Assembly: GCA_004193555.1 (NCBI GenBank)
Contig: RPGP01000040.1
Location: 377,127-441,126 of the forward strand
Direction of reading: 5' to 3'
Length of the DNA stretch: 64,000 nt
Source of the DNA: Desulfobacteraceae bacterium Eth-SRB1
Lineage (GTDB): Bacteria; Desulfobacterota; Desulfobacteria; Desulfobacterales; ETH-SRB1
The notes below the pieces were generated by a model. The model worked only from the letters and a program-made list of their open reading frames with translations, was not told where the DNA came from and made no database searches. The position numbers and the translations under genes were made by a program. Position 1 is the first letter of the stretch, and each line of letters opens with the position of its first letter. Of this stretch, positions 24,119-63,670 are shown one piece after another.

Positions 24119-24168
24119 TAAACATAAATCTAATAATATACTAACCGTTTCGTAACTTAAGGGTTATA
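24119..24168 (+). promoter_or_regulatory. predicted Pho box array upstream of phoBR
   Basis: Hexamers at exactly 11-bp spacing: TAAACA 24119, CTAATA 24130, CTAACC 24141, GTAACT 24152, GTTATA 24163. The middle three fit (C/G)TAA(C/T)N; the outer two are weaker. The same pitch and sequence recur before pstS, the STAS gene and the second pstS. Autoregulation of phoBR by PhoB is inferred. A perfect 10-bp hairpin (24178-24187 with 24193-24202) follows immediately. Confidence 0.65.
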
Positions 24169-24402
24169 ATTTATGGTTCTTCTCCAATTTAGTTGGAGAA
24201 GAGGGTGCAAGGATTCCAGGGGTCAAGGATTCAAGCGTTTGTTTTTTAGAGACTTTATCAGCGCCTTTAACATTTTTTCGCTTTCCGCTATATTAAAAGA
24301 AATAGAGACAATAGATCTTCTCACTCGAACCCTTGAATCCTTGAACCCTTTACATCAACTAATCGGGAGATAATCCTAACTTGTTTACGGGGAAAGCATA
24401 TT

Positions 24403-25092
24403 ATGGCTGACAATAAAATTCTTGTTATAGATGATGAAGAAGATATCCTTGAGCTGGTTAGATATAATCTCGCGAGAGAAGGATACAGGGTTGTTTGCGC
24501 GGCTTCCGGAGAACAATCGCTGAATAAAGCCGGGTCCGAGCCCTTCGATCTGATTGTGCTCGATCTCATGCTTCCGGGCATTGATGGCCTGGAGGTGGCC
24601 AAAAGGCTGAAAAACAAACCGGAAACCCGGCATATCCCTATCATTATGTTAACTGCAAAAGGCGAAGAAGCGGACATCGTAACAGGACTGGAACTTGGCG
24701 CTGATGATTATGTTACCAAACCGTTCAGCCCCAGGATCCTAATTGCACGGGTTAAGGCTGTTATCCGAAGAAATTTGCAGGAAGAAGTCGATGATTCTTC
24801 AATTATTCAGATATATGAACTTGAAATCGATCCGGGTAAACGCAAAGTGCTTGCCAAAGGATCGCATGTTGAATTGACATTTACCGAGTTTCAAGTCCTT
24901 TACCTGCTTGCCAGGCGACCGGGCTGGGTTTTTACCCGTTTCAAAATCGTTGATTCAATCCGGGGTGATGATTATCCTGTTACGGACCGCAGTGTCGATG
25001 TCCAGATTGTCGGATTGCGGAAAAAACTCGGACCCTACGGCAAATATATCGAAACAGTCCGTGGCGTCGGATATAGATTCAGGGAGATATAA
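24403..25092 (+). CDS. phoB: phosphate regulon response regulator PhoB
   Basis: 229 residues of the OmpR/PhoB class. The receiver has DDEED (about 9-13), the phosphoacceptor Asp in LIVLDLMLPG (about 53) and the Lys in MLTAKGEE (about 84). The winged helix covers about 130-228 with LTFTEFQVLYLLARRPG and RSVDVQIVGLRKKLG. It overlaps phoR by one base (TAATG). The Pho-box array upstream and the large pst/phoA block in the same window make the phosphate assignment firm compared with a generic OmpR-type regulator. Confidence 0.93.
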   Translation: MADNKILVIDDEEDILELVRYNLAREGYRVVCAASGEQSLNKAGSEPFDLIVLDLMLPGIDGLEVAKRLKNKPETRHIPIIMLTAKGEEADIVTGLELGADDYVTKPFSPRILIARVKAVIRRNLQEEVDDSSIIQIYELEIDPGKRKVLAKGSHVELTFTEFQVLYLLARRPGWVFTRFKIVDSIRGDDYPVTDRSVDVQIVGLRKKLGPYGKYIETVRGVGYRFREI

Positions 25093-26873
25093 TGAAGAAA
25101 AAGAAACGGTTGATCAGTCAATTATATCCTTCATATTTGTTGATTGTTTTCATATCTCTGACTGCCGTGAGCTGGTATGCTTCTGATGCCATGCGAAATT
25201 TCTTCTTTGCGCAGACGGCAGATGTTCTTGAAACCAGGACGAAATTGCTGGAAAGCCGGATTATTAAACACCTTTCACCGCTAAATGAGAAATCTGTTGA
25301 CCTAACCTGCAAGGAAATCGGCGGGATTTCAGAGACCCGCATAACAGTCGTGCTTCCTTCCGGAAAAGTAATCGGCGATTCAGAAGAAGATCCCCGCAGC
25401 ATGGATAATCATAGCGATAGAAAAGAAGTAAGGGCGGCGATCAGCGGAAACATCGGCGATTCAACAAGATTCAGCAGAACACTTCAGCAAAAAATGATGT
25501 ATGTTGCAATACCCCTGATAAAGGATAATAAAATACTGGGGGTTTTAAGGATCTCAATTCCTGTAACGTCTGTAGATAATGCTTTAAAGTCCATACAAAG
25601 AAAAATTGCGCTTGGAGGATTGTTCATTGCTTTGTTAGCGGCAATAATCAGCCTGTTTGTCGCGCGGCGTATCAGCGAGCCTCTGGAGGAGATGAAAAAG
25701 AGCGCAGATCGTTTTGCCGAAGGCGACCTGGCCCACAGGCTGCCGGTGCCTGACACAAAAGAGATGGAGGCCCTTGGTGAGGCAATGAACCAGATGGCGG
25801 CCCAGCTTGACAGCAGAATAAAAAGCGCCATACGCCGGAAAAATGAACTGGAAACCGTACTTTCCAGCATGTTAGAGGGAGTAATTGCTGTAGATATGGA
25901 TGAACGCATCATCAGCGTAAATCAGGTAGCAGCCATGATATTTAATGGCAAGCCTGAAAAATTTAAGGGGCAAAGTATTCAAGAGGCGATAAGGGTTTCA
26001 GAATTGCAGCGTTTTGTAAAAAGGGCGCTTTTGAGTGTGGAATCGATAGAGGATGATATCGTTTTAGAGCACAATGAAGAACGTGTTTTGAATATGCACA
26101 GCTCTTCGCTTCAAGATGCAGAAAAAAAACGCGCCGGCATACTGGTTGTAATAAATGATGTCACAAAACTAAGACGTCTTGAAAATGTTCGGCGTGATTT
26201 TGTTGCCAATGTTTCCCATGAAATTAAAACACCCTTAACAGCAATCAAAGGTTTTGTAGAAACTCTTCATGACGGAACCGTTGAAAAGCCTGAAGATATT
26301 GAGCGTTTTTTCGAGATTATCATTAAGCATATTAATCGTCTCGATGCCATAGTTGAAGATCTTCTGACCCTGTCAAAAATCGAACAGGAAGATACTGGGG
26401 AAAAAGAGATAAAGTTTGAAACAGGATCTATCAAAGATGTTTTAGAGACGGCAATTCAGGTTTGTCAGGCAAAAGCAGACAAAAAGAATATTCATATCAA
26501 GTCTATTTGTGATAAAGGAATTACCACAAGAATTGATCCAGCGCTTCTTGACCAGGCTATAGTTAATATCCTTGATAATGCCATAAAATACAGTGAAAAA
26601 GAAAGCGCTGTATATGTTGAGTGTTCTTCAATGGAAAAAGAGATAATAATCAGCATTAAAGACCAGGGAATCGGAATTACCAAAAAACACCTGCCCCGGC
26701 TTTTTGAAAGATTTTACCGGGTTGATAAGGCTCGAAGCCGTGAATTAGGCGGCACAGGACTTGGGCTTGCCATCGCAAAACATATTGTTCAGACACATGG
26801 CGGCAGGATATCAGTTGAAAGCACACCAGGCAAAGGAAGCGCCTTTACAATCCATCTGCCAAGCACTAATTAG
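25092..26873 (+). CDS. phoR: phosphate regulon sensor histidine kinase PhoR
   Basis: 593 residues. Order: membrane helix near 13-30, a periplasmic segment of about 140 residues, a second helix near 172-192, HAMP (RISEPLEEMKKSADRFAEGD), PAS (LSSMLEGVIAVDMDERIISV), HisKA with VSHEIKTPLTAIKGFVETL (phosphorylated His near 375) and the ATPase domain with NILDNAIKYS, DQGIGI and GGTGLGLAIAKH. The large extracytoplasmic part differs from the short-loop E. coli PhoR and resembles the Bacillus-type sensor layout. Co-transcription with phoB is expected. Confidence 0.92.
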   Translation: MKKKKRLISQLYPSYLLIVFISLTAVSWYASDAMRNFFFAQTADVLETRTKLLESRIIKHLSPLNEKSVDLTCKEIGGISETRITVVLPSGKVIGDSEEDPRSMDNHSDRKEVRAAISGNIGDSTRFSRTLQQKMMYVAIPLIKDNKILGVLRISIPVTSVDNALKSIQRKIALGGLFIALLAAIISLFVARRISEPLEEMKKSADRFAEGDLAHRLPVPDTKEMEALGEAMNQMAAQLDSRIKSAIRRKNELETVLSSMLEGVIAVDMDERIISVNQVAAMIFNGKPEKFKGQSIQEAIRVSELQRFVKRALLSVESIEDDIVLEHNEERVLNMHSSSLQDAEKKRAGILVVINDVTKLRRLENVRRDFVANVSHEIKTPLTAIKGFVETLHDGTVEKPEDIERFFEIIIKHINRLDAIVEDLLTLSKIEQEDTGEKEIKFETGSIKDVLETAIQVCQAKADKKNIHIKSICDKGITTRIDPALLDQAIVNILDNAIKYSEKESAVYVECSSMEKEIIISIKDQGIGITKKHLPRLFERFYRVDKARSRELGGTGLGLAIAKHIVQTHGGRISVESTPGKGSAFTIHLPSTN

Positions 26874-52823: not shown

Positions 52824-53480
52824 TTAATGCTCTCGATGCCGAATAATTTCACCCTCAATTAAATAAATAACCTCTTCGGCAATATTGGTGGCATGGTCTG
52901 CTATCCGCTCAAGGTGGCGGGAAACCAGGAGCAGGTTGATCAGATAACTCACACGATCCGGGTGCTTGCCAATAGCGTGTTTGACCACATCATAGGCTTC
53001 ATTCAGCATATTATCCACCTCATCGTCCAAGGCGCAAACACGCAAAGCAAGGTCCACGTCCACGTTCACAAGGGCATCCAGGCTCTTCTTGAGCATGGTT
53101 TCGCTCTTTTCCGCCATCAGAGAATGATTGAAAGGGATATCAAGCATTTGCCGTTTGGCAATAATCTGTACACGTTCTGCGATGTTCACCGCCTCATCCC
53201 CAATTCTTTCCAGATCGTTGTTGATCTTGATTACAGCTATGAGAAACCTGAGGTCTACGGCAACGGGCTGATGCAGAGCCAGAATTTTCAGGCATTCTTC
53301 TTCCACCTCTACTTCAAGCTCATCTATCTCGTAGTCACTCTTGATAATTTTCTCCGCAAGATTCGCATCTCTTAATTCGACAGCCCTGGTAGCCATGCGG
53401 ACACGCTCTTCTACCATAGCGCCAAGAGAAAGGACCATTTTTTTTATTTTATCAAGTTCTCTTTGAAAATGTATTGTCAT
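52824..53480 (-). CDS. phoU: phosphate signalling protein PhoU
   Basis: 218 residues from ATG 53480 (MTIHFQRELDKI), with GGAG eight bases upstream. Two three-helix PhoU repeats are seen; each has the acidic ExxxD-type metal motif (IKINNDLERIGDEAVNIAE and LLLVSRHLERIADHATNIAE). It links the Pst transporter to PhoR and dampens the Pho response when phosphate is sufficient. Last gene of pstSCAB-phoU. Confidence 0.95.
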   Translation of the reverse strand: MTIHFQRELDKIKKMVLSLGAMVEERVRMATRAVELRDANLAEKIIKSDYEIDELEVEVEEECLKILALHQPVAVDLRFLIAVIKINNDLERIGDEAVNIAERVQIIAKRQMLDIPFNHSLMAEKSETMLKKSLDALVNVDVDLALRVCALDDEVDNMLNEAYDVVKHAIGKHPDRVSYLINLLLVSRHLERIADHATNIAEEVIYLIEGEIIRHREH

Positions 53481-53493
53481 GATAATTTCTCCA

Positions 53494-54255
53494 TTATCCA
53501 AACCTGCCGGTGATGTAGTCTTCTGTCTGCTTAAGTTTGGGCCTCGTGAAAATGGTATCCGTCACATCGGTTTCAATGAGTTTCCCCAAGTAGAAAAAGG
53601 CAGTGATGTCTGAAACCCTGGCAGCCTGCTGCATATTATGTGTAACTATAATAATTGTGTATGTTTTTTTTAGCTCGTGAATTAATTCTTCGATCTTCTG
53701 GGTGGCGATGGGGTCAAGAGCTGAACATGGTTCATCCATAAGGAGAACATCGGGTTCCACAGCCATGGCCCGGGCTATGCATAGCCGCTGCTGCTGCCCT
53801 CCTGACAGCCCAAGGGCCGATTCATGGATTCTATCTTTTACTTCATCCCACAGGGCAGCGGCCTTAAGGCTTGTTTCCACATGTTGAGTAATATAAGCTT
53901 TGTCTTTAATACCGTTAACGCGCATGCCGTATGCAACATTTTCAAAAACGCTTTTTGGAAAAGGATTGGGTTTTTGAAACACCATGCCTATTCGACGACG
54001 AAGTGAAACAACATCCACACTTGGATCGTAAATATTTTGATCACCCAGGAAGATGCCTCCCTCGACGCGGCTGTAAGAGATCAGGTCGTTCATCCGGTTC
54101 AGGCAGCGCAGCAGGGTGCTTTTTCCACACCCGGACGGACCGATAAAAGCTGTTACCTCATGGGCGTAAATATCCAGCGAAATATCTGTCAGTGCCTTAA
54201 AATCTCTGTAAAAAAAATCTAACTCTTTTATAGCAATTTTTAATGTTTTTTCCAT
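53494..54255 (-). CDS. pstB: phosphate ABC transporter ATP-binding protein
   Basis: 253 residues from ATG 54255; a TTG two codons earlier is possible. Walker A is [12 protein letters not shown] (about 36-47), the signature [17 protein letters not shown] (about 145-161) and Walker [15 protein letters not shown] (about 167-180) are all present, along with the PstB-typical [11 protein letters not shown]. Confidence 0.97.
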
Positions 54256-54267
54256 AGTCAATCCGAA

Positions 54268-55140
54268 TCAACGCTGCTTTTGTAATCGCGCCCTGTAAAT
54301 TATTGCCATAAGGTTCAACCCCAGAACAAGGGCGATAAGTACAAGGGATGTGCCGTACTGGAGGTGACGTGTTGCCTCGATTTCCGTGCCTGCGGTTGCC
54401 AAAACATAAATATGATAAGGAAGCGCCATGACTTCATCAAAAACAGATGACGGCAGAGAGGGTGTAAAAAAAGCTGCCGCGGTAAACATAATAGGCGCTG
54501 TTTCTCCTGCTGCCCTGCTGAGTCCTAAAATTCCTCCTGTAAGGATGCCGGGCAGGGCAGCGGGCAGGACTACCCGGTAAATAGTCTGCCATTTTGTGGC
54601 GCCAAGTCCGAGAGATGCTTCCCTGTAAGTATCCGGAACAGATCGCAGGGCTTCTTCGGTAGCTCCTATGATAACGGGGAGTGTAAGAACGCCTAAAGTA
54701 AGGGCGCCTGCAAGAATACTTACGCCCATTTTAAGATAAACCACAAAAAATGCCAGGCCAAAAAGACCAAACACAATTGAAGGCACACCTGCCAGGTTGT
54801 TGATCCCAAGACGGATTATTCGCAATATCCGGCCTTGAAAGGCATACTCGTTAAGATAAATCGCTGAAGCAACGCCGATGGGGATAGCCACAATAATAGC
54901 GCCCAGGCTTAAGCAAACAGTTCCGACAATACAGGGCAAAATTCCCCCTTTTGTCATGGAATCCATTGGCGGTTGTGTAAGAAATGTCCAGGTAATGGCT
55001 CTCCATCCTCTTGCCACTAAAAAATAGAATATGGTAAGCAGTGCAATGCCGTTAATGGCAGCAGACATCCTGAAAAAACCAAACATGATATACTGTAATA
55101 ATTTACGCCGGCCCTGAATGCTGTTTGAATTTTTAAACAT
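54268..55140 (-). CDS. pstA: phosphate ABC transporter permease PstA
   Basis: 290 residues from ATG 55140, preceded by AGGAAATCCC; a longer in-frame extension overlapping pstC is rejected. Six membrane helices; the EAA-like coupling loop is YREASLGLGATKWQTIYRVV, and LSRAAGETAPIMFTAAAF is a PstA signature. Confidence 0.95.
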   Translation of the reverse strand: MFKNSNSIQGRRKLLQYIMFGFFRMSAAINGIALLTIFYFLVARGWRAITWTFLTQPPMDSMTKGGILPCIVGTVCLSLGAIIVAIPIGVASAIYLNEYAFQGRILRIIRLGINNLAGVPSIVFGLFGLAFFVVYLKMGVSILAGALTLGVLTLPVIIGATEEALRSVPDTYREASLGLGATKWQTIYRVVLPAALPGILTGGILGLSRAAGETAPIMFTAAAFFTPSLPSSVFDEVMALPYHIYVLATAGTEIEATRHLQYGTSLVLIALVLGLNLMAIIYRARLQKQR

Positions 55141-55153
55141 AAAGGGATTTCCT

Positions 55154-56065
55154 TTACAGGGTTGATGCGCCAACCTGTTTATATTTATGAGAGATATGAT
55201 CCGCTGCCAGGTTAAAAAGCAGCGTGAAGAGAAACAAAACAACTGCCGTTGCAAACAGGGCATGGTAATGATCTCCCCTGAAAGGGGCCTCCGCCATTTC
55301 TGCGGCTATGCTTGCGGGCATGGGCCTGACCGGATCAAACAGTGATATGGGGACAATAGCCGCGCCTCCTGCAACCATGAGCACTACCATGGTTTCTCCG
55401 ATTGCTCTGGACATACCCAGAATAATTGCAGTTATGATGCCGGAGAGGGATGCCGGCAGGATAACCCGGGCTATGGTTTCCCATTTGGTGGCGCCGAGAG
55501 CCAGTGAAGCCTCTTTAAGCTCTGTGGGCACGCTGAAGATGGCATCTTCCGAGAGGCTGCAAATAGTCGGAATAGACATGAAAGCCAGCATTAATGATGC
55601 ATTAAAAAGATTCAGGCCAGTGTCAATGTCAAAGACCTCTTGAAGAAATGGAGCTATAATTACCATTCCGAAAAAGCCTATTACCACAGATGGGAGCGCT
55701 GCCATAAGTTCCACAACCGGTTTGACCCATTGCCGCACACCGGCAGTGGCGGTTTCTGCAAGATAAAGGGCTGTCAGCACTCCCAATGGAATGGAAATTA
55801 CGGAAGACACGCCTGTTACGCACAGGGAGCCGACAATCAGTGGAAAGATTCCGAAATCCGGGGGCTCATCAGTCGGGTACCAGTATTTCCCGAAAACAAA
55901 ATCCATAACGGAAACCTCTTTAAAAATAGGAAGACCCTCCATAAATAAAAAAATCGTAATTAATGCAAGGGTTGCTATTGAAGCCAGCGAAATACAGAAA
56001 AATGTGATCCGGATGATCTTTTCAGTTCTGTATCTGCTTTTTCCGCTATGACTGGTTTTTACCAC
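55154..56065 (-). CDS. pstC: phosphate ABC transporter permease PstC
   Basis: 303 residues, GTG start. FGKYWYPTDEPPDFGIFPLI (about 42-61) is typical of PstC. The coupling loop is LKEASLALGATKWETIARVI, and MSRAIGETMVVLMVAGG follows. Thirteen bases separate it from pstA. 56066-56223, between it and pstS, is filled by TTCAGGG heptamers and a TTCGATGTTGGACGTTCGAT array. Confidence 0.95.
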   Translation of the reverse strand: MVKTSHSGKSRYRTEKIIRITFFCISLASIATLALITIFLFMEGLPIFKEVSVMDFVFGKYWYPTDEPPDFGIFPLIVGSLCVTGVSSVISIPLGVLTALYLAETATAGVRQWVKPVVELMAALPSVVIGFFGMVIIAPFLQEVFDIDTGLNLFNASLMLAFMSIPTICSLSEDAIFSVPTELKEASLALGATKWETIARVILPASLSGIITAIILGMSRAIGETMVVLMVAGGAAIVPISLFDPVRPMPASIAAEMAEAPFRGDHYHALFATAVVLFLFTLLFNLAADHISHKYKQVGASTL

Positions 56066-56077
56066 GCTTTTTCCTTG

Positions 56078-56215
56078 TTCAGGGTTCAGGGTTCAGGGGT
56101 AAAGTGACTAAAGTTATGGAGTCGCTCCGCTCCGTTTGTTTCAAATTGAAGAGCGAAGCGACATCATTATTCAAAATTCGATGTTGGACGTTCGATGTTG
56201 GATGTTCATCCCTTA
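56078..56215. repeat. heptamer arrays between pstS and pstC
   Basis: Three TTCAGGG units at 56078-56098 and a composite GAGCGAAGCGACATCATTAT plus CGATGTTGGACG-type array up to about 56210. Confidence 0.8.
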
Positions 56216-56223
56216 CTTTCCTT

Positions 56224-57042
56224 TTAATATAAAGGCACATATCCTGCTTCGGATACATATTTTTGACCTTTTTCAGGATGCACAATAAAGTTGATGAAAT
56301 TAAGGGTATCTCCCTTTGGCCATCCCTGGGTGAACATATAGAGCGGTCTGCTGATGGGGTATGTCCCATTCAGAGTTGTTTCTGCCGACCCCTCGAGATT
56401 GTTGACCCTTAAAGCCTTGATGGAACCGGTCATATAGCCGAGACCGATGTAGCCGATGGCATTTTTATTATTTGCAACAGCCTGGACAATAGCTCCGTTG
56501 GAAGCCTGGAGAAGCGCCCTGGGGAAAACCCTTTCTTTTTTCATGACTTTCTTATACCAGACCTCGTATGTCCCGGAAGAGGTGTCACGGGAGATGACAA
56601 CAACCGGTCTGTCAGGTCCGCCAATCTTTTTCCAGTTCCTGATTTTACCCATATAGATGTCTTTAAGCTGAGCCATGGTGAGATTCGTTATATTATTGCC
56701 TGGATGCACCACAGGCACAATACAGTCATAAGCCACTGCAAAAGGAACCGGATATCTTCCGTTTTCAACAGCCAGCTTTACTTCCTTTGTTTTGATGAAG
56801 CGGGAGCTGTCAGCAATATCGGTAGATCCATCGATGAGCGCCTTTATTCCGTTGCCTGATCCGCCTCCTGAAATAGATATCTTTACATCAGGGTTGTCCT
56901 TCATATAGATTTCGGCAACCTTTTGGGCGATGGGCAACACAGTTGTTGAACCTTTAATTACTATGTTTCCGGCAAAAACCAAATTAGCCGTAAAACAAAC
57001 GGTCAGAGCGATTACTGATATTAAAAGAGTTCGTAACTTCAT
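56224..57042 (-). CDS. pstS: phosphate ABC transporter substrate-binding protein PstS
   Basis: 272 residues. A signal peptide (LLISVIALTVCFTANLVFAG) precedes the mature protein. IKGSTTVLPIAQKVAEIY (about 28-45), SISGGGSGNGIKALIDGSTD (about 56-75) and VISRDTSSGTYEVWYKKV (about 148-165) build the phosphate site. It is the first gene of pstSCAB-phoU and is preceded by a strong Pho-box array. Confidence 0.96.
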   Translation of the reverse strand: MKLRTLLISVIALTVCFTANLVFAGNIVIKGSTTVLPIAQKVAEIYMKDNPDVKISISGGGSGNGIKALIDGSTDIADSSRFIKTKEVKLAVENGRYPVPFAVAYDCIVPVVHPGNNITNLTMAQLKDIYMGKIRNWKKIGGPDRPVVVISRDTSSGTYEVWYKKVMKKERVFPRALLQASNGAIVQAVANNKNAIGYIGLGYMTGSIKALRVNNLEGSAETTLNGTYPISRPLYMFTQGWPKGDTLNFINFIVHPEKGQKYVSEAGYVPLY

Positions 57043-57091
57043 TTTTTATTACCTCCATGTTTTATGCGTTAAAAATAAAATACGTCAATAT

Positions 57092-57130
57092 TGTTAGATT
57101 CGTGTTAGAGTTGTATTAATATCAGGTTAA
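57092..57130 (-). promoter_or_regulatory. predicted Pho box, four 11-bp repeats, upstream of pstS
   Basis: Read on the minus strand: TTAACC, TTAATA, CTAACA, CTAACA starting every 11 bp (plus-strand starts 57125, 57114, 57103, 57092), about 50-90 bp before the pstS ATG. It is the best-matching array in the window and is located as expected for PhoB activation. Confidence 0.75.
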
Positions 57131-57296
57131 TGTCCTTTTATAATCACCTCCTTTTTCCATTCTACGCGGTTTATGCTTTGCTGCGTTCTGTTTCGAGTTT
57201 ACTAAAATCTTTGTAAGCGTTCTCAGGTTCAAAAGTTTACAGTGAAGCTTTAAACTCTGAACCAGCGAACGGTTACAAATTTTTATATACCGGGAT

Positions 57297-57324
57297 TATT
57301 AGGCTTTGATTAGAAAAGAATTAG
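57297..57324 (-). promoter_or_regulatory. predicted second Pho box, three 11-bp repeats
   Basis: On the minus strand CTAATT, CTAATC, CTAATA at 11-bp pitch (57319, 57308, 57297). It lies about 260 bp before pstS and could serve a distal promoter. Confidence 0.6.
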
Positions 57325-57564
57325 ATTTAAATGAAATCAAAGCGGTCTCGGCGATCTCCCTTATTCTCGATCCGCCAAATTATAACACCTGTCACACTTC
57401 CATGTCTTAGGGTTCATATTCAGAACTATTCATGAACTGCAACAGCAAGCGAATATAAAAATAGCAAGTTTCAATTGAAGCTTGTATTCATCTCCAGGTT
57501 TGTTGAGTGATCGTAGGTTGTCACGGGAATAGGGTTGCGTGATAAACCGGAAAAGTTAAGTGAA

Positions 57565-57614
57565 CTAATCAAATTCTAACTCATTAGTAATCAAGCTTTA
57601 ATAAGAATTTACGA
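57565..57614 (+). promoter_or_regulatory. predicted Pho box, five 11-bp repeats, divergent direction
   Basis: Plus strand CTAATC 57565, CTAACT 57576, GTAATC 57587, TTAATA 57598, TTACGA 57609, all at exact 11-bp spacing. It points toward the STAS-MBL-alkaline phosphatase run that begins at 57822. Confidence 0.7.
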
Positions 57615-57821: not shown

Positions 57822-58178
57822 ATGAAATATCATCTAACAAAGGATAACGATTTTTTTATTATAAAAATCTCAGGTCAAACCAAAAAGAATGAGGCCCTTC
57901 AGGTCAAAAGTATTCTTTCCACTTATATAAAGGAAAGAGGCATAAGAGTAATTATGGATCTTAAAGACCTGGAAAAGTTTGAACCAATCACCCTCATAGG
58001 GGTTTTAAACGGTATGAGAAAGGAAGTTGACCTTTTAGGAGGATGCTTAAAGCTATCTTCCTTGAATCCGGAGATATTAGACTATTTTAAGGAAAATCGC
58101 ATGGATCAGTTCTTTAAAATCTATGAGGATGAAGAAGGCGCAAAAAAAAGTGAATGGAGAGATTATGGCAAAAGATGA
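57822..58178 (+). CDS. STAS-domain protein (anti-sigma factor antagonist-like)
   Basis: 118 residues. GIRVIMDLKDLEKFEPITL (about 40-58) and GVLNGMRKEVDLLGGCLKL (about 60-78) follow the STAS fold. The usual phosphorylatable Ser in DSSGI is replaced in EPITLIG, so phospho-regulation by a partner kinase is uncertain. It overlaps the MBL gene by 14 bp and stands first behind a Pho-box array. Confidence 0.75.
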   Translation: MKYHLTKDNDFFIIKISGQTKKNEALQVKSILSTYIKERGIRVIMDLKDLEKFEPITLIGVLNGMRKEVDLLGGCLKLSSLNPEILDYFKENRMDQFFKIYEDEEGAKKSEWRDYGKR

Positions 58179-58887
58179 TCAAGTTATAGAATTACAGCCT
58201 GATATTTTCCGGCTTAAGGGAGAGGGCTCCAGCAGCCACAGCTACCTGATCAGGGGTGACTATAAAAATGTCCTGATTGATTCAGGAGTGGATAAAAATT
58301 TCTCAAAATTGCAAGAATCCTTACTTACGCTGGGCCTCAAGATCAGGGATATTGATATAGTAATCAATACCCACGAGCACTTTGACCATATTGGGGCAAA
58401 CCGTTATTTCCAGGATTATGCCCTGATTGCAGCGCATCGCTTTGCGGCTACAAAGATTACGGTAGAAGATAGATACGTTACCATGTATAAATCCGGCGAT
58501 CTCAACGAGCCATCCCTGAGAGTTCATCTCTGGCTGGAAAGCAAGAGTCGATTCGACCTGGGCAACTACAGTCTTAATGTTATACATACCCCGGGGCATA
58601 CCTCAGGATCGATATGTATCTATGAACCAGTCCGGAAAATCCTCTTTGCCGGGGATACCGTCTTTGCAGGGGGAACACTTTCTTATATTGGTGAATCAGG
58701 AAGTGTGGGCGATTATATTGATTCCATCAGCCTTCTTGCGACCAGAAAAATAAACGAGCTCTATCCCGGACACGGGAAGATTTCAAAAAATCCGGAAGAG
58801 GATATGCAAAAGGCTATTTTGAATGCCAGGGCGCTTTTGAGGGATGAGGAAAAAGTAGAAATTACCGATTTTCGGGAGGTCCCTTAG
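58165..58887 (+). CDS. MBL-fold metallo-hydrolase
   Basis: 240 residues from ATG 58165, with GGAGA upstream. The zinc motif is NTHEHFDHIGA (about 67-77), then HTPGHTSGS (about 143-151), FAGDTVFAGG and a late YPGHG (about 207). It belongs to the general hydrolase branch (glyoxalase II-like). The substrate is unknown; position in a Pho-type operon suggests a phosphoester or a role in phosphate starvation. Confidence 0.85.
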   Translation: MAKDDQVIELQPDIFRLKGEGSSSHSYLIRGDYKNVLIDSGVDKNFSKLQESLLTLGLKIRDIDIVINTHEHFDHIGANRYFQDYALIAAHRFAATKITVEDRYVTMYKSGDLNEPSLRVHLWLESKSRFDLGNYSLNVIHTPGHTSGSICIYEPVRKILFAGDTVFAGGTLSYIGESGSVGDYIDSISLLATRKINELYPGHGKISKNPEEDMQKAILNARALLRDEEKVEITDFREVP

Positions 58888-58986: not shown

Positions 58987-60507
58987 ATGATGCGAAAAAT
59001 TGTTTTTAGAAGCTTTATGGCAAAAATGGTCACAGCGTGTTTCCTGGCGACCGCATTGTTACTCACTGCTCACGTTTACCCTGTTTGGGCCGAAACTGCT
59101 CTTCATGAAGGTACTCCGGCCAAGTACACTTTCTTTTTTATTGGTGATGGAATGGCTATGTCCCAGCGAACAGCCGCCGAAATGTATATGTCGTCGAAGG
59201 AAAAAGGCTCAAAAAAGGTTTTGCTGCTTATGAATCAATTCCCGGCACAAGGCATGACCACTACGCATGCCGCCAACAGGTTTATTACAGGCTCAGCAGC
59301 GGCCGGCACAGCCCTCGCATGCGGGATAAAGACCAACATTAACTATATTAGTGTTGATCCGGATTTTAAGACGGTGAAAACAATGGCTGAGATGGCAAAA
59401 GAAAAGGGCATGAAGGTGGGAATCGTCTCAAGTGTTTCCATCGACCATGCAACACCTGCCAGTTTTTATGCCCACCAACCTACTCGTAAGATGTACCATG
59501 AGATCGGTATGGATCTTGCGAAGAGCGGCTTCGACTACTTTGCCGGCGGCGGTCTTAAGGACCCCACGGGCAAGAAATCCAAGAAACCCCTTGGCGACAC
59601 CTTGCGCGTTGCAAAGAAAAATGGTTACAGAATTGTGGAAAACAGACGTAAGTTTATGGCTCTGACAAAAAGGTCCGGCAAAGTTATCGCCTTTAACAAA
59701 AATCTTCCCGATGGCAAGGCCCTTCCATATCACATGGACAACACTTCTGAAGACATTACCCTTGCGGAATTTACTAAAAAGGGAATCGAACTGTTAGATA
59801 ATTCTAAAGGTTTTTTCATGATGGTCGAAGGTGGAAAGATAGACTGGGCCTGCCACGCAAATGACGCAGTCGCTTCCATAAAAGACACCCTGGCGTTTGA
59901 TGAGGCAATTGGAGTGGCATATGACTTCTATGAGAAACATCCGGATGAAACATTGATTGTCGTTACGGGCGACCATGAGTGCGGCGGTCTGACACTTGGA
60001 TTTGCGGGCACTGCGTATGCATCGCATTTCGATATACTAAAAAACCAGAAAGTTTCTTTTAAGGTATTTACAAACAAAATAATGGCTGAATATAAAAAAG
60101 CCCACGCCGGAAAGGCTCAGTTTGAAGATATGATTCCTATTTTAAAGAAATATTTCGGACTGGAAGCGGCAGGTAAAGGGCAATTGGCCCTCAAGGACTA
60201 TGAGCTTGCCGAGCTCAGGAGGGCTTTTATCCAGAGTATGGCCGAAGTGAAAATCAACAAGGGAACTGCCGACTATCTCCTGTACGGTGGATACGACCCT
60301 TTTACCGTGAAAATCACACATGTTCTGAATCGTAAGGCGGGTCTGGCCTGGACATCTTACTCTCATACCGGTGTGCCCGTGCTTACTTCCGCCATCGGGG
60401 TGGGTGCAGAAACCTTCAATGGTTACTACGATAACACCGATGTGGCAAAAAAGCTCATGGCTGTCATGGGAGCGCTTGGCGAGATGAAGCTGGCCGTAAA
60501 CTGGTAA
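58987..60507 (+). CDS. phoA: alkaline phosphatase
   Basis: 506 residues with a signal peptide (MVTACFLATALLLTAHVYPV, cut near WAE-T). FFIGDGMAMSQ (about 51-61) gives the metal Asp, ITGSAAAGTALACG (about 98-111) the nucleophile Ser, HATPASFYAHQ the metal His region, and VVTGDHECGGLTLG the late Asp/His pair. Asp before the nucleophile in E. coli PhoA (DSA) is Gly here. AAGGAG is six bases before the ATG. It is periplasmic and releases phosphate from esters for uptake by Pst. Confidence 0.93.
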   Translation: MMRKIVFRSFMAKMVTACFLATALLLTAHVYPVWAETALHEGTPAKYTFFFIGDGMAMSQRTAAEMYMSSKEKGSKKVLLLMNQFPAQGMTTTHAANRFITGSAAAGTALACGIKTNINYISVDPDFKTVKTMAEMAKEKGMKVGIVSSVSIDHATPASFYAHQPTRKMYHEIGMDLAKSGFDYFAGGGLKDPTGKKSKKPLGDTLRVAKKNGYRIVENRRKFMALTKRSGKVIAFNKNLPDGKALPYHMDNTSEDITLAEFTKKGIELLDNSKGFFMMVEGGKIDWACHANDAVASIKDTLAFDEAIGVAYDFYEKHPDETLIVVTGDHECGGLTLGFAGTAYASHFDILKNQKVSFKVFTNKIMAEYKKAHAGKAQFEDMIPILKKYFGLEAAGKGQLALKDYELAELRRAFIQSMAEVKINKGTADYLLYGGYDPFTVKITHVLNRKAGLAWTSYSHTGVPVLTSAIGVGAETFNGYYDNTDVAKKLMAVMGALGEMKLAVNW

Positions 60508-61961: not shown

Positions 61962-62147
61962 ATGAAAAAAATAGTGATCGTAACCAGCCGGCCAGAGCCT
62001 GATCACAGTTTACTTGCATCGATCAATACCCTGTTCCCTGAATGTGAAGTCCAGATTGTTTTCAAAGAGAATGAGACTATCGCGGTCTGTCCTGCCGGTA
62101 TCTCTTCGGATCAATTAATGGCTCATACGGGAGATATTGAAATTTAA
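61962..62147 (+). CDS. small uncharacterised protein
   Basis: 61 residues; AAAGGACGG precedes the ATG. It starts MKKIVIVTSRPEPDHSLLAS and has two Cys, FPECEVQIV and AVCPAGI. The alternating hydrophobic strands suggest a small alpha/beta fold. I do not recognise it. Its place between YibE/F and the second pstS suggests a phosphate-block accessory. Confidence 0.5.
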   Translation: MKKIVIVTSRPEPDHSLLASINTLFPECEVQIVFKENETIAVCPAGISSDQLMAHTGDIEI

Positions 62148-62154
62148 TCCCGCC

Positions 62155-62182
62155 TTAATAACACTGTAACATTAGGATAAAA
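62155..62182 (+). promoter_or_regulatory. predicted Pho box upstream of second pstS
   Basis: TTAATA 62155, GTAACA 62166, ATAAAA 62177 at 11-bp pitch. The first two fit the pattern well. It is about 250 bp before the pstS-like gene and 45 bp before a small hydrophobic frame. Confidence 0.5.
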
Positions 62183-62427: not shown

Positions 62428-63294
62428 ATGAAAACCAGAGCAATATGGATTATTATTTCTGTGGTTGCAGCAGCCGGAATAATCAACCTGCCGCTATTTT
62501 TTAATGATGAACAGAATAACAGACTGGACATAAAAGGCTCCACAACGGTGTGCCCGATAATCATGCGGTGTCTTGATCTATTCAAAAAAGATTATTCCGA
62601 GGCCCTGATTACAGTTACTAAAAGCGGTTCAGGTTCAGGCATTGCAGCGCTATTGGATGGCACTGCCGACATTGCCATGTCCTCCAGGCCTTTAACAGAA
62701 AAAGAGAAAAGCATTATTGCTGAAAAAGGGCTGAAAATCGACAGGATAGTTATAGGTCTGGATGGCATTGCGATTATTGTTCATGCCCAAAACCCGATAG
62801 ACCAAATCAGTATCAAACAATTGCGCGATATCTACACAGGTAAGATTACTGACTGGAAAGAATTGGGGTGTACGCCAGGAAAGATTATCCCTGTTTCACG
62901 GGATGTATCCTCCGGCACTTTTGTAATCTTCGGCAAAAAAATACTCGGGTCAGAAAAACTCAGGCCGGATGTCCAGTTGGTTCCCTCCAACCGGGTTATG
63001 GTGCAGTCAGTGGCCGCGAATAAAGAAAGCATTGGTTATGCAGGATTGGGCTATGTTGACAAGAGTGTAAAAGCCCTTGCTGTTAACGGATGTCATACTG
63101 ATCCAACCACTATTAAGAGCGGAAAATATCCTCTATCCAGAGAGCTTTTCCTTTTTACCAGAGATGATTTTTCTGAATTAAAGAAGAATTTTCTTGAATT
63201 TGTCCTCAGTCCTGAGGGGCAGCGTATCGTAAGAGAGGAAGGCTTTGTTGCAGCAACAAATCAATCAAATTCCAAAAAGCGGCATAAAGGCTGA
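62428..63294 (+). CDS. second PstS-family phosphate-binding protein
   Basis: 288 residues with an N-terminal hydrophobic anchor (AIWIIISVVAAAGIINLPLF). KGSTTVCPIIMRCLDLF (about 37-53), SGSGSGIAALLDGTADIAMS (about 66-85) and PVSRDVSSGTFVIFGKK (about 155-171) are the phosphate-site segments. It lacks a PstC/A partner in its own operon, so it may feed the main Pst system, or serve as a sensor input. Its 3' end overlaps the next frame by 47 bp. Confidence 0.88.
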   Translation: MKTRAIWIIISVVAAAGIINLPLFFNDEQNNRLDIKGSTTVCPIIMRCLDLFKKDYSEALITVTKSGSGSGIAALLDGTADIAMSSRPLTEKEKSIIAEKGLKIDRIVIGLDGIAIIVHAQNPIDQISIKQLRDIYTGKITDWKELGCTPGKIIPVSRDVSSGTFVIFGKKILGSEKLRPDVQLVPSNRVMVQSVAANKESIGYAGLGYVDKSVKALAVNGCHTDPTTIKSGKYPLSRELFLFTRDDFSELKKNFLEFVLSPEGQRIVREEGFVAATNQSNSKKRHKG

Positions 63295-63577
63295 TCTTGT
63301 CATTGGATTTGGGCTTTGCCTGTGTATCCTGCTGGCATTATCCGGACTCTACCTTTGGAAAACAGATATATACAAGAAACAGTTCAATACTCTTATTGAG
63401 CAACAGCAGTCTTTTTCTCTCTGCGGCCGGATATCCCTGGAATTAGAACAACAGTCCCGATTTGTACTCTTCCTGGTTCATCAAAATAATTCTGGCAGCA
63501 AAGAGAAGTTCTATCAATCCAGGGAAAGAATAATCGACCTGATGCAAAAGGTCTGGTTGGAAGCCTTGGGCTTATAA
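63248..63577 (+). pseudogene. truncated membrane sensor-type protein
   Basis: About 109 residues from a TTG at 63248 (GAGGAAGG upstream). A membrane helix (LVIGFGLCLCILLALSGLYLW) is followed by a helical extracytoplasmic stretch, LISLELEQ-like (CGRISLELEQQSRFVLFLVH), as in histidine kinases or chemoreceptors. It stops without any signalling domain, then a CCCTGAA heptamer array follows, so it is probably a truncated gene. Confidence 0.45.
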
Positions 63578-63670
63578 TGGTCGCTCCATTTAGTGCATTT
63601 GCCGGCGGTATTATATTTAATTTCCGCAAGAAAGCAGGGAGCGGGGAGTTGGACGTTCATCTTTCAAAAC

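Follow-up and report, generated by a model that had tools for sequence, protein, structure and literature searches.

Three arrays of short direct repeats between pstS and the divergent STAS-domain gene are very probably Pho boxes, at which the PhoB response regulator encoded in the same window would bind and activate the neighboring pho genes, with a CTAACA-like half-site that may be due to glycine at residue 201 of its recognition helix. The window is the whole 64,000-nucleotide stretch of DNA analyzed here (C40:377127-441126 of a 3.34-Mb genome). The assignment is made because sense-strand arrays of 11-bp pitch were found to be conserved in relatives and because a -10 element lies at a fixed offset from them. 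The features by which a Pho box was recognized, namely at least two direct repeats at 11-bp pitch, a location at pst, phoB and phosphatase promoters that is conserved in relatives, and a fixed spacing to the -10 (TA at +14/+15), were all found.

Repeat arrays and their gene context

The 779-bp gap between pstS (minus strand) and the STAS gene (plus strand) has a GC content of 37% and contains three arrays of TAA(C/T) units, each with a pitch of exactly 11 bp. The features of this region are listed below.

57077 to 57082, minus strand: predicted pstS promoter -10, TATTTT, at +14 when counted from the T of the final array 1 half-site
57092 to 57130, minus strand: array 1, four predicted Pho half-sites at 11-bp pitch (TTAACC 57125-57130, TTAATA 57114-57119, CTAACA 57103-57108, CTAACA 57092-57097), in the promoter of pstSCAB-phoU
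57282 to 57287, minus strand: predicted array 2 -10, TATAAA
57297 to 57335, minus strand: array 2, a second, farther predicted Pho box about 255 bp upstream of the pstS ATG (CTAATT 57319-57324, CTAATC 57308-57313, CTAATA 57297-57302)
57565 to 57603, plus strand: array 3, predicted Pho box upstream of the STAS-MBL-phoA cluster (CTAATC 57565, CTAACT 57576, GTAATC 57587, TTAATA 57598)

The start codon of pstS lies 50 bp past the end of array 1. Array 3 is followed by a weak -10 (GATAAA), and about 220 bp separate it from the start codon of STAS. The original prediction had placed arrays between these two genes, and both its coordinates and the 11-bp pitch were confirmed. Eleven of its twelve hexamers fit; the remaining one (TTACGA, 57609-57614) is in the register of array 3 but is degenerate, overlaps the -10 region and breaks the consensus proposed with it. 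The three hexamers given for 57297-57324 are all correct, with an additional in-register unit (TTCATT, 57330-57335) having been left unlisted. When the 779-bp region was shuffled 5000 times with dinucleotides preserved, arrays of at least three units arose at a mean of 0.0044, compared to the three observed, and none of the 5000 shuffles gave two arrays or any four-unit array; two of the three observed arrays have four exact TAAY units each. Across the 64-kb window, TAAY runs of at least three units were seen five times at pitch 11 and never at 10, 12 or 13.

The genes and further arrays of the window that bear on this assignment are as follows.

24130 to 24157, plus strand: predicted phoBR Pho box, CTAATA/CTAACC/GTAACT, conserved in three related genomes (G001, G003, G008)
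24165 to 24170, plus strand: TATAAT following the phoBR array
24403 to 25092, plus strand: phoB, OmpR-family response regulator, recognition helix RSVDVQIVGLRKKL
25092 to 26873, plus strand: phoR/pnpS-type histidine kinase (NF046044 PnpS, 408.7 bits, above the cut-off of 400)
52824 to 53501, minus strand: phoU (TIGR02135, above cut-off)
53494 to 54261, minus strand: pstB (TIGR00972, above cut-off)
54268 to 55161, minus strand: pstA (TIGR00974, above cut-off)
55154 to 56065, minus strand: pstC (TIGR02138, above cut-off)
56224 to 57042, minus strand: pstS (TIGR02136, 282.7 bits, above cut-off)
57822 to 58178, plus strand: STAS-domain protein, first gene of the divergent cluster (PF01740, above cut-off)
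58162 to 58887, plus strand: metallo-beta-lactamase (MBL)-fold hydrolase (PF00753)
58987 to 60507, plus strand: alkaline phosphatase, phoA-like (PF00245, 234.7 bits)
62144 to 62171, plus strand: array TTAATC/TTAATA/GTAACA, upstream of a pstS paralogue
62428 to 63294, plus strand: second PstS-family protein (TIGR02136, 236.8 bits, above cut-off)

The minus-strand operon thus reads pstS-pstC-pstA-pstB-phoU, and on the plus strand the STAS, MBL-fold and alkaline phosphatase genes are followed by one for a YibE/F-like protein. In the whole genome the three-unit pattern gave 15 matches, compared to five for a reversed control, and 12 of the 15 (seven distinct arrays) fall inside a 46-kb stretch of pho genes (C40:401257-447166). 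The seven arrays precede phoBR, pstSCAB-phoU, the STAS-MBL-phoA cluster and two pstS paralogues, and include a third duplicate array; three near-identical duplicates (62144, and C40:441887 and C40:447130 outside the window) were counted as one. Matches at C1:431229, C1:581491, C40:540222 and C40:1008097 have no obvious pho gene nearby and were treated as background. A stricter pattern, in which two units had to be followed by a -10, matched the genome once, at the pstS array, and its reversed control gave three matches.

The pho cluster is split in this genome, since phoB/phoR and the pst operon are 26 kb apart (24403-26873 and 52824-57042), whereas only a few kb separate phoB, phoR and pstS in related genomes. 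The pstS paralogue at 62428 has a duplicate at C40:442.2 kb, and a tandem duplication of the PstS paralogue with its promoter array was observed (window 62428-63640 and L018:1700-5223, i.e., C40:441.7-445.2 kb). A hybrid histidine kinase following the window paralogue is only 110 aa long and runs into a YibE/F-like tail, and its second copy is complete at 727 aa; the shortened copy looks like a recombined pseudogene. The third array copy (C40:447.1 kb) is followed by genes for a GNAT protein, a type I phosphodiesterase and a PhnM-like protein (the latter two at L018:8701-10644), which may form an organophosphate/phosphonate branch of the same regulon.

Conservation and promoter geometry

Thirty pstS neighborhoods were drawn from 58 related genomes, of which 28 had at least 150 bp upstream. 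A sense-strand array of at least three units was present at 17 of these 28 pstS orthologues of the order, with no antisense array and no array at pitch 9, 10, 12 or 13 at the same 28 loci; shuffled pstS upstream regions yielded 0.03 arrays on average. An exact three-unit array was missing at 11 of the 28, most of which have two-unit arrays. Arrays were likewise found at phoB promoters (11/23). Absence of enrichment of 11-bp-phased TAAY hexamers before pho genes in relatives had been set beforehand as the refutation of the original prediction; the sense-strand enrichment at pstS was the outcome. Throughout the order, C is the dominant first base of the half-site and CTAACA the dominant half-site. 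Array 1 has an orthologous array at the equivalent position in relatives, and array 3 recurs in front of the STAS orthologue of three sister-genus genomes. Identity to the sister genus is 87-93% for the MBL protein but only 66-69% for PstS between the same groups, which suggests that the STAS-MBL cluster (window 57822-58887) may have been exchanged together with its promoter.

Further evidence was seen when 56 distinct arrays from relatives were aligned on their last unit. A T was found at +14 in 73%, an A at +15 in 89% and a hexamer-final T in 64%, and TANNNT occurred at +14 in 26 of the 56 arrays as opposed to 1.8 arrays on average over offsets +20 to +28. Counted from the T of the final TAAY, the -10 hexamer therefore begins after 14 bases, so that 10 bases separate the two. 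In E. coli, Pho boxes have likewise been reported with a TANNNT -10 at a distance of 10 bp downstream (PMC1906773). As the -10 was not used in finding the arrays, it constitutes independent evidence for activator sites of class II geometry.

From this arrangement a mechanism can be proposed. Upon phosphate starvation, the PhoR/PnpS-type kinase would phosphorylate the window PhoB (24403-25092), which would then bind head-to-tail along the repeats, each 11-bp unit holding a single DNA-binding domain. The final unit would stand in for a -35 element, with the -10 sitting 10 bp beyond TAAC. Array 1, assisted by array 2, would activate pstSCAB-phoU, and array 3 the STAS-MBL-alkaline phosphatase cluster, with phoBR itself and the pstS paralogues likewise activated by PhoB. 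The half-site would be CTAACA-like instead of TGTCAT as a consequence of residue 201, which is a guanine-bonding Arg in E. coli and Gly here, while the residues expected to recognize the shared T and to contact the minor groove have been retained.

The regulator and the first base of the half-site

The best NCBIfam model for the window regulator is TIGR02154 (PhoB), but at 248.8 bits it scores below the cut-off of 296.2 and so falls short of the equivalog level. Its assignment as the PhoB orthologue comes from context, as a PnpS/PhoR-type kinase adjoins it; in relatives, phoB, phoR and pst are adjacent at three loci and lie on one contig in two genomes (G001, G003). The nearest named PhoB relatives are those of NaphS2 and Syntrophaceae, which point to Desulfobacterota as the lineage. 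Comparison of the recognition helix of E. coli PhoB, RTVDVHIRRLRKAL, with that of the window protein, RSVDVQIVGLRKKL, reveals the changes R200V and R201G; of the E. coli contact residues, V197, R203 and R219 are kept, and T194S and H198Q accompany the two former substitutions. The structure of E. coli PhoB on DNA shows a hydrogen bond from Arg201 to a guanine, contacts of Thr194 and Val197 with thymines, and contacts of Arg219 with bases lying between the half-sites (PMC3973317).

The relation between residue 201 and the first base of the half-site (base 1) was investigated at 201 PhoB/PhoP loci from the phylum, Bdellovibrionota, Firmicutes and named genomes. A uniform rule was applied, requiring at least three T(A/C)A(C/T) units in non-coding DNA upstream of a pho gene and on its strand. 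At pitch 11, 31 of the 201 loci qualified, compared to 0, 2, 0 and 0 at control pitches 10, 12, 9 and 13. Base 1 was mostly G in units of Arg201 loci (23/36; T9, A3, C1), C in those of Gly/Ser/Ala201 loci (41/59; T14, G3, A1) and T in those of His/Asn201 loci (14/17; A2, C1). When 11-bp-phased words were counted de novo, without a supplied motif, CTAAC was the top phased 5-mer near PhoB with a small residue 201 (20 observed, 0.12 expected), TGTAAC/GTAACA were among the top words for Arg201 PhoB, and TTAAC was the leading word for the Lys-Asn/His type. CTAAC was also the top 5-mer for Bdellovibrionota PhoB with Phe200-Gly201 (5 vs 0), and TTAAC was phased in the Firmicutes Arg-His type (5 vs 0.25). 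The Pho-box interpretation given in the original prediction gains support from CTAAC being the top phased word, in addition to the conservation before pst and phoB genes. No clear phased motif or arrays were found at 20 Bacilli PhoP loci, where residue 201 is His. A clear exception to the residue-201 rule is a PhoP with Ser200-Arg201 (L317:5777), which has TTAAC/CTAAC units upstream. In a separate PhoB subgroup (L119 and L123; helix VDFHITSLRRKL) with Phe197 and Ser201, the units are CTCAT/CTCAC; their third base, C instead of A, hints at a second helix position reading the third base.

When a tree was computed with the helix columns left out, five changes were counted for residue 201 and five for base 1, with only one independent pair on well-supported branches. 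As independent changes are few, much of the correlation could be due to shared ancestry. Significance is out of reach for sign tests on the independent pairs of the tree, and the rule is therefore given no p-value; a Fisher value of 3e-7 for residue 201 against base 1, which ignores ancestry, was set aside. It is advanced as a strong hypothesis, drawn from sequence comparison, that base 1 follows residue 201 across PhoB/PhoP loci. The reading of G by Arg201 is established chemistry. For Gly201 with C no contact explains the pairing, which may be permissive or dependent on residues 198 and 200. The broader proposal is that residue 201 sets base 1 across bacteria (Arg, G; Gly/Ser/Ala, C; His/Asn, T) and that the Desulfobacterota lineage of the window switched from Arg to Gly, with GTAAC/GTCAC rewritten to CTAAC throughout its Pho regulon; this would have about an even chance of being correct.

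Alternatively, the half-site dialect could reflect base composition or site drift only, with residue 201 irrelevant. The small number of independent changes and the L317 exception are compatible with this, and a review has tied consensus differences to genomic GC (PMC4415409). However, a change of base 1 from G to C leaves GC content unaltered, the bond to guanine in the E. coli complex is made by residue 201 (PMC3973317), and the Bdellovibrionota Phe200-Gly201 proteins likewise yield CTAAC, so that this explanation, while a serious one, is somewhat doubtful. It was also considered that the arrays are real regulator sites read by another factor, such as the only other protein of the genome with an OmpR/PhoB DNA-binding domain (C40:503701; helix RTVDNFIVRFRK). 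OmpR-family regulators generally bind direct repeats, such that pitch alone cannot name the protein, and this second regulator is encoded in the same genome as the arrays. However, it does not resemble PhoB, it keeps Arg at position 201, and no pst or pho genes adjoin it in the stretch read, whereas the arrays precede phoB in relatives and, throughout the phylum, accompany pst and phoB genes, making its involvement very improbable. Formation of the repeats by chance in AT-rich intergenic DNA has a negligible probability: the region is of 37% GC and some genome-wide matches at non-pho places resemble background, but the dinucleotide shuffles contradict this explanation and the strict strand and pitch conservation in the order, together with the fixed -10, refutes it.

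Relation to known Pho boxes

Reading the arrays as Pho boxes allows comparison with described systems. The proposed mechanism is like that of an E. coli class II Pho promoter (CTGTCAT N4 CTGTCAT), which similarly has 11-bp direct repeats upstream of pst, phoB and phoA, a last unit in the -35 place, a TANNNT -10 about 10 bp downstream and a PhoB/PhoR pair. The half-site differs, being CTAACA instead of TGTCAT and often present in three to four units, and V200-G201 replace the R200-R201 of E. coli PhoB. The arrays are therefore of the Pho-box kind but not E. coli-type by half-site (TGTCA, G at base 1), as the units read C, T or G followed by TAA(C/T).

The original prediction had described the half-site as closer to the Bacillus form. 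The B. subtilis PhoP box consists of TTAACA-type direct repeats, so the TAACA core is common to both; base 1, however, is T in B. subtilis and C in CTAACA, and the cyanobacterial SphR box is equally close. The latter comprises at least three tandem CTTAACCT units with 3-bp linkers (PMC1906773) and shares the TAAC core, the pitch of 11 and the number of units, but has T instead of C before TAAC and belongs to another phylum. Among sulfate reducers, the described case is PhoB of Desulfovibrio vulgaris (DVU1083), for which the box (c/t)GT(n)AC was obtained by DAP-chip (PMC3333781). Reported as a 6-bp repeat with a 4-bp spacer, this box keeps G at base 1, and its GTnAC core matches the R201-type GTAAC of other clades in the present set. 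No description of the CTAACA form or of the residue-201 rule was found in the open-licence literature.

A large group of anaerobes thereby gains a usable Pho-box model, three to four YTAAYA units at 11 bp followed by 10 bp and TANNNT; their CTAACA-type sites would be missed by the published D. vulgaris model. More generally, a known regulator-DNA contact becomes a testable letter-to-residue rule, in which a global regulator and all of its sites would have changed together.
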